Assembly: GCA_947176375.1 (NCBI GenBank)
Contig: CAMWQM010000013.1
Span: 1-51,318, forward strand
Length of the DNA: 51,318 nt
Direction of reading: 5' to 3'
Source: an uncultured Helicobacteraceae bacterium
GTDB lineage: Bacteria; Campylobacterota; Campylobacteria; Campylobacterales; Helicobacteraceae
The position numbers and the translations under genes are program-made. Under the pieces are notes generated by a model, which saw only the letters and a list, made by a program, of their open reading frames with translations, was not told the DNA's origin and searched no databases. Within the stretch, counting starts at the first letter, position 1; each line of letters begins with the position of its first letter. Positions 28,661 through 30,566 of the stretch are shown piece by piece.

Positions 28661-29548
28661 GTGAATTTAGCGATTTTTGGAGGCTCATTTGACCCACCAC
28701 ACAAAGGGCATTTAGAAATTATTCAAAAAATCACAAAACTAGATTTTATAGATTTATTAATAGTTTTGCCGACATTTTTAAGCCCGCTTAAAGAAAAAAG
28801 CTTATTTTCTGCTAAGATTAGATTTAAATTAGTAGAATCTATGCTAACAAATATACCAAAAGTAGTTCTCTCAAACTACGAAATAAGCCAAAATAAGCCA
28901 AATTACACCATAGATTCCATTTTTTATTTTAAAAATCTATACAAACCAAATAAAATTTATTTTGTAATTGGAGCGGATAAAATAGATGAACTTCCCAAAT
29001 GGCATAGAAGTAATGAATTGCAAAATGAAGTGGAGTTCATAGTTGCCTCAAGAGATAAAATAAATATCCCAAAGCATTTTATTAATTTGCAAATTGATTC
29101 TCCTTGCAAATCTAGTGAAATAAGAAAATACATTTTAAATAATAATTTTAGCGATTATAAGATAGAATCCTGCCTTTTAGATTCTACTAAAATAGAGGTG
29201 AAAACATTGAATATTAAAGAGAGGTTGGATTTTATAATAAATTTGCTAGATTCTAAAAAGGCACAAGATATTGAACTTTTTGATTTGAGTAAAACTAGCT
29301 ATATCACGCAATATGTAATAATAACCACAAGTCTAGCAGATAAACATAGCTTTGCCCTGTTAGATACACTAAAAACAGAGTTAAAGCCAAAAGGCGAGGA
29401 ATTCTACGCAACTGATGAGGAGAGTGGAGATTGGATTATTGCTGATTTGGGTGAGATTATGATTCATATTTTCACAGAAAATCATAGAAAAAAGTTTAAT
29501 TTAGAAGAATTTTTAAGCAATTATCAAAAGGAAAATAATATTGAATAA
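28661..29548 (+). CDS. Fused NadD (nicotinate-nucleotide adenylyltransferase) and RsfS (ribosome silencing factor)
   Basis: Two normally separate proteins lie in one frame of 295 residues. Residues 1-160 are NadD, which makes deamido-NAD from NaMN and ATP: GGSFDPPHKGHLEII (about 7-21) holds the H-x-G-H nucleotidyltransferase motif, VIGADKIDELPKWHR (about 103-117) the substrate region, and SPCKSSEIRKYI (about 147-158) the S-S-x-x-I-R motif. After a short linker, residues about 182-290 are RsfS (YbeB/Iojap), which binds ribosomal protein L14 and blocks subunit joining: KAQDIELFDLSKTS, YVIITTSLADKHS and DWIIADLGEIMIHIFTENHR. It starts with GTG after a good AGGAAAG. The genes are neighbours in many bacteria, so the fusion could arise by losing one stop. 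Confidence 0.9.
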   Translation: MNLAIFGGSFDPPHKGHLEIIQKITKLDFIDLLIVLPTFLSPLKEKSLFSAKIRFKLVESMLTNIPKVVLSNYEISQNKPNYTIDSIFYFKNLYKPNKIYFVIGADKIDELPKWHRSNELQNEVEFIVASRDKINIPKHFINLQIDSPCKSSEIRKYILNNNFSDYKIESCLLDSTKIEVKTLNIKERLDFIINLLDSKKAQDIELFDLSKTSYITQYVIITTSLADKHSFALLDTLKTELKPKGEEFYATDEESGDWIIADLGEIMIHIFTENHRKKFNLEEFLSNYQKENNIE

Positions 29549-30566
29549 AAAAATAACACAATTCGTAAGCTGTGCTGGGTGAGCTGCTAAAGTAGGTCTG
29601 GAAGACTTAAAACAAATAACTAGCAACCTAAACCAACCAAATTACAAAAATCTCCTAGTAGATTTTAAAGATAATGATGATAGCGGAATCTACAAGGTTG
29701 ATGAGTCTAATATTATTGTCCAAAGCCTAGATTTCATCACTCCTATTGTAGATGATTTGTATATTTATGGAGGAATTGCCGCGGCAAACTCACTTAGCGA
29801 TGTATTTGCAAAAGGCTCAGACGCACACACTGCAATGAGTATTTTAATGTGGGATAAAGAACATTTAAATACAAATGAGGCAAATGAGATTTTACAAGGT
29901 GCGTTAAACAAGCTAATAGAATCTAGCACTGCCCTGCTTGGTGGGCATAGCATAGTAGATAGTGAACAGAAATTCGGGTTAAGCGTTACAGGGATAATTA
30001 AAGATTCTATCTTTTGGAGGAATAATACTGCAAAAATAGGAGATTTAATAATCCTAACTAAACCTATTGGAAGTGGAATTCTCTCTAGTGCGCTAAAAGC
30101 TGGCGAAATGGAATTTAGTAAAGATTTAGACTTTGTCAAATCTATGCTAGAACTAAATTTATATGCTAAAAATGAGGCTAAAAAATTTAGTATAAGTGCT
30201 TGTAGTGATGTAACAGGATTCGGGTTGATAGGGCATTTAAATGAAATGATAAATCAAAGTATTTCAATCAATCTCTATGCAAATGAAGTAGCAATGTTTG
30301 ATAGAGTGAGAGAATTTGCGAATATAGGGATTATTCCAGGTGGCAGCCATAAAAATAAAGCTACTTTAGAATCTAGTGTGTTAAATGAAAATAGTATTGA
30401 TGATATATTTTTTTATGATGCACAGACTTCTGGAGGATTATTAATAGCACTAGATTCCAGCAATACAAATGAACTAAATAAGATTCTAAATGATAAAGGA
30501 ATACAATCAAAAATAATTGCTGAATGTGTCCCAAAAAGCGAATATAAAATCTATCTTAAAAAATAA
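29541..30566 (+). CDS. selD: Selenide, water dikinase SelD, itself a selenoprotein (in-frame UGA)
   Basis: SelD makes selenophosphate from selenide and ATP, the selenium donor for selenocysteine and selenouridine. Automatic reading from the TTG at 29757 misses the N-terminus. The frame extends back to TTG at 29541 (AGGA about 8 bases upstream) and reads LNKKITQFVSCAG, TGA, AAKVGLEDLKQ. The TGA at 29580-29582 stands exactly at the active-site Cys/Sec of SelD and is followed by the conserved Lys. Past it there are no stops for 328 codons. Later motifs include VQSLDFITPIVDD, GIAAANSLSDVFAKGSDAHT and ACSDVTGFGLIGHLNEM. The full length of 341 residues fits the family. It overlaps the nadD-rsfS stop by 8 bases. 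Confidence 0.93.
29580..29609 (+). promoter_or_regulatory. Selenocysteine UGA codon with adjacent candidate bacterial SECIS
   Basis: The TGA at 29580-29582 is the recoded codon. Just downstream AAGT (29590-29593) can pair with ACTT (29605-29608), enclosing AGGTCTGGAAG. The GGTCTG in the loop matches the apical loop sequence of the E. coli fdhF SECIS, which binds SelB. An alternative pairing GTCT/AGAC (29596-29599 with 29603-29606) also exists. The position, starting within about 10 bases of the UGA, is right for a bacterial SECIS; the fold was judged by eye. Confidence 0.55.

Follow-up and report, generated by a model that had tools for sequence, protein, structure and literature searches.

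SelD and Fdh that contain selenocysteine (Sec) have been described across the Epsilonproteobacteria, together with DUF466 proteins that carry a C-terminal Sec, and the corresponding genes, most of which are truncated in GenBank, share a short 5/6-bp hairpin with an invariant G in its loop (Cravedi et al., 2015; PMC4607533). As early as 2005, SelD and FdhA of Helicobacter hepaticus had been listed among predicted selenoproteins (PMC1242214), and Sec-decoding organisms without FdhA were all found to have Sec-SelD (Zhang et al., 2006; PMC1794560).

The selD gene discussed here lies in a 51,318-nt stretch of DNA from an uncultured Helicobacteraceae bacterium, hereafter the window. It resembles the Sec-SelD genes of Epsilonproteobacteria (H. 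hepaticus, H. mustelae and C. jejuni) in its active-site Sec codon, in the short hairpin a few nucleotides downstream and in the complete selABC set that accompanies it; the species differs, and there is no functional difference as far as tested (PMC4607533). With Cys-SelD of the E. coli type it shares fold, family and pathway position, but the latter has an active-site Cys and involves no recoding, and within our family sample it occurs only in genome G007 (locus L057). We estimate at roughly 96% the probability that this gene encodes a selenophosphate synthetase with a catalytic Sec, the UGA at 29580 being decoded via SelB and the short downstream hairpin. This reading draws on an intact frame, a conserved UGA, a complete sel gene set and a hairpin with compensated pairs, all of which are observed here.

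The selD frame and its conserved UGA

The selD gene (selenide, water dikinase) occupies 29541..30566 on the forward strand and starts with a TTG that falls within an 8-nt overlap with the upstream gene (28661..29548, forward strand), a single ORF of 295 aa in which a domain search identified NadD and RsfS. This upstream gene stops inside the selD start, so that the two may be translationally coupled. When the TGA at 29580..29582 is read as Sec, the frame yields 341 aa, LNKKITQFVSCAG-U-AAKVGLEDLKQ..., with Sec as residue 14 in the motif CAG-U-AAK and no other in-frame TGA. The protein thus translated scores 305 bits against TIGR00476 (cut-off 125), its residues 5-307 covering positions 2-309 of the 311 in the profile, and matches the solved structures 2yye/2zod in the PDB with an E value of 3.5e-55. 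As the earlier note had claimed, the TGA sits at the catalytic Cys site (G-U-A-A-K here): it aligns with the Cys of the GCAAK motif in 2yye, and solved SelD structures have Cys there. The motif G-[CU]-x-x-K is common to the 57 SelD genes compared. There is one SelD gene in the window, and no second one was found in the genome.

How widely the TGA is conserved was assessed in a sample of 100 genomes from Helicobacteraceae. At an E value of 0.001 there were 70 SelD matches, two of which (G060 and G076) were weak and were set apart, leaving a real SelD in 68 genomes, with a TGA in 67 and a Cys codon in one. Among the 57 genes read directly and aligned, 56 have TGA and a single one, that of G007, has TGT. 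This genome retains selB and selC, and its Cys-SelD gene keeps a SECIS-like hairpin (GGTC CGGGG GACC) after the Cys codon, a pattern that would fit a Sec-to-Cys replacement. Close SelDs were found in the named relatives Helicobacter sp. 16-1353 and Helicobacter sp. 13S00482-2 and in an uncultured Helicobacteraceae MAG, while a search of plasmids returned distant SelDs only.

These data bear on the possibility that selD is a pseudogene, or that position 29580 is a sequencing error. A standard gene caller would indeed give a truncated selD, but independent genomes share the TGA, the rest of the frame is intact and the hairpin is maintained, so that this explanation is refuted and keeps a probability close to nil. 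Equally improbable is that a shorter SelD begins after the TGA and that the upstream frame is unused. Under the standard code, the sole selD ORF listed is one of 269 aa from a TTG at 29757 (29757..30566, forward strand), which hides the first 72 codons, and the earlier note was right both about these codons and in expecting annotation to call a truncated gene with a false TTG start. This TTG is present in this gene only among the 57 aligned, the column being mostly a Pro codon elsewhere. A start after the TGA is thus not the conserved one; most relatives have a start codon 12-16 codons 5' of the TGA. Moreover, the residues ITQFVSCAG upstream of the TGA are kept across the aligned genes, and the shorter product would be devoid of the catalytic N-terminal segment. 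At three loci (L041, L042 and L043) the selD frame has no ATG, GTG or TTG before the TGA, and translation may begin there at a non-standard codon, for instance ATC after GGAGA; a rare CUG start has been reported for C. jejuni SelD (PMC4607533).

Selenocysteine machinery of the genome

The host genome (1.8 Mb, 99.99% complete) has selA, selB and selC, the genes whose presence the earlier note had singled out for checking, and all three are grouped on a contig other than that of selD. selB (contig C8, 68779-70590) is directly adjoined by selA, which scores 421 bits against the Pfam SelA family, and selC passes the Rfam cut-off and is called by ARAGORN as tRNA-SeC with anticodon TCA. A 339-aa protein with no Pfam match (L014, 7758-8777, reverse strand) overlaps the end of selB. 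Least credible of all is a genome-wide reassignment of UGA, for example to Trp, in favour of which nothing was found and which is refuted by ordinary TGA stops in 8 of the 41 window genes; the alignment of the site with Cys or Sec rather than Trp and the existence of this tRNA-Sec also speak against it.

A second clear selenoprotein is the formate dehydrogenase FdhA, encoded on another contig, with an in-frame TGA in ARI-U-HSP that is followed by a similarly placed hairpin. The genome also has mnmH, and a search for SelW (PF10262) in it found none. Separately, a DUF466/Sel_put gene (L052, contig C4, 39996-40172, reverse strand) ends in Cys-TGA-TAA, as described for proteins with a C-terminal Sec (PMC4607533), and the same Cys-TGA-TAA/TAG ending is seen in three other members of the genus (L101, L103 and L108). 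In these three a paired hairpin lies 3' of the Cys-TGA, with arms that differ but match; the hairpin of L052 in the present genome is weak (-0.6 kcal/mol).

With recoding as the preferred reading of the selD UGA, SelB carrying Sec-tRNA(Sec) would bind the short hairpin just 3' of position 29580 and decode the UGA as Sec. Both Sec insertion and the enzyme activity of SelD are predicted from homology. Selenophosphate made by SelD would then pass to SelA for Sec-tRNA synthesis, and so serve SelD's own synthesis and that of FdhA, and to MnmH for selenouridine in tRNA. Because SelD synthesis would require SelD's own product, the UGA and its hairpin could also be viewed as a candidate selenium-responsive switch, selected for regulation and not for catalysis alone, although we regard this idea as rather doubtful.

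The hairpin downstream of the UGA

The SECIS element of E. coli fdhF is a hairpin that follows the UGA; its apical loop contains a G, and GGUC is part of that loop. The element in selD (29594..29608, forward strand) is likewise a hairpin that follows the UGA and has a loop G, but here GGUC belongs to the 5' arm: AGGUCU (29594-29599) pairs over 6 bp with AGACUU (29603-29608) around a GGA loop, and in this gene the stem may be lengthened by a U29593-A29609 pair. The earlier note had described a GGTCTG-containing loop about 13 bases after the UGA; the motif is there, starting at 29595, 12 nt past the TGA, but as an arm of the stem and not as the loop.

The case for this hairpin is a comparative one. 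In 32 distinct sequences aligned on the TGA, their kinship being ignored, the stem is paired in 97.9% of cells compared with 94.6% in shuffles, none of 500 shuffles reaching that value, and sliding the partner by 1-3 columns as a control lowers pairing to at most 58%. Three stem pairs show compensatory change on both sides in the same 32 sequences. The loop-closing pair swaps between U-A and C-G (Fisher p 6e-8 in 51 distinct rows, kinship again ignored), and this swap tracks a Leu/Pro codon change. Codons +5 and +6 in the 5' arm lack synonymous variation: each of the 55 genes with Gly at +5 uses GGT, and codon +6 (Leu/Pro) is CTG or CCG in 57 of 57; where Gly is replaced by Asp (L066) or Ser (L075), stem pairing is kept. 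Codons outside this arm mostly vary, except that +10 and +11 are likewise free of synonymous changes, for which the hairpin offers no explanation. Measured over a sliding window of four codons, synonymous constraint at +5 to +8 ranks only 7th of 148, because +8 is free to be either GAC or GAT without loss of pairing; constraint codon by codon is the informative measure. A comparable downstream hairpin occurs at only 8 of the 1531 TGA triplets in the window, that of selD included, which, together with the conservation of the TGA in the family, speaks against a chance arrangement. When the selD hairpin is folded alone, its stability does not exceed that of shuffled sequences (z from -1.05 to 0), and an Rfam search, whether at the gathering threshold or at relaxed ones, matched no SECIS family. 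The hairpin thus has comparative support and is invisible to a single-sequence fold and to Rfam alone.

Sec-SelD in Helicobacter and its relatives

The central claim of the earlier note, that SelD is a selenoprotein with a recoded UGA, is borne out by a full-length SelD across the TGA, a complete set of sel genes and conservation in 67 of 68 SelD-bearing genomes. The novelty that it implied finds no support, since Sec-SelD is standard in the group (PMC4607533); here it is the normal, already published state of the gene among Helicobacter relatives. What changes is the annotation of one gene, corrected to 341 aa with Sec at residue 14 and a true start 5' of the UGA. This is an annotation fix rather than a discovery, which leaves our knowledge of selenium use in Helicobacter as it was, and with it one more species with a complete selenocysteine system joins the published pattern.
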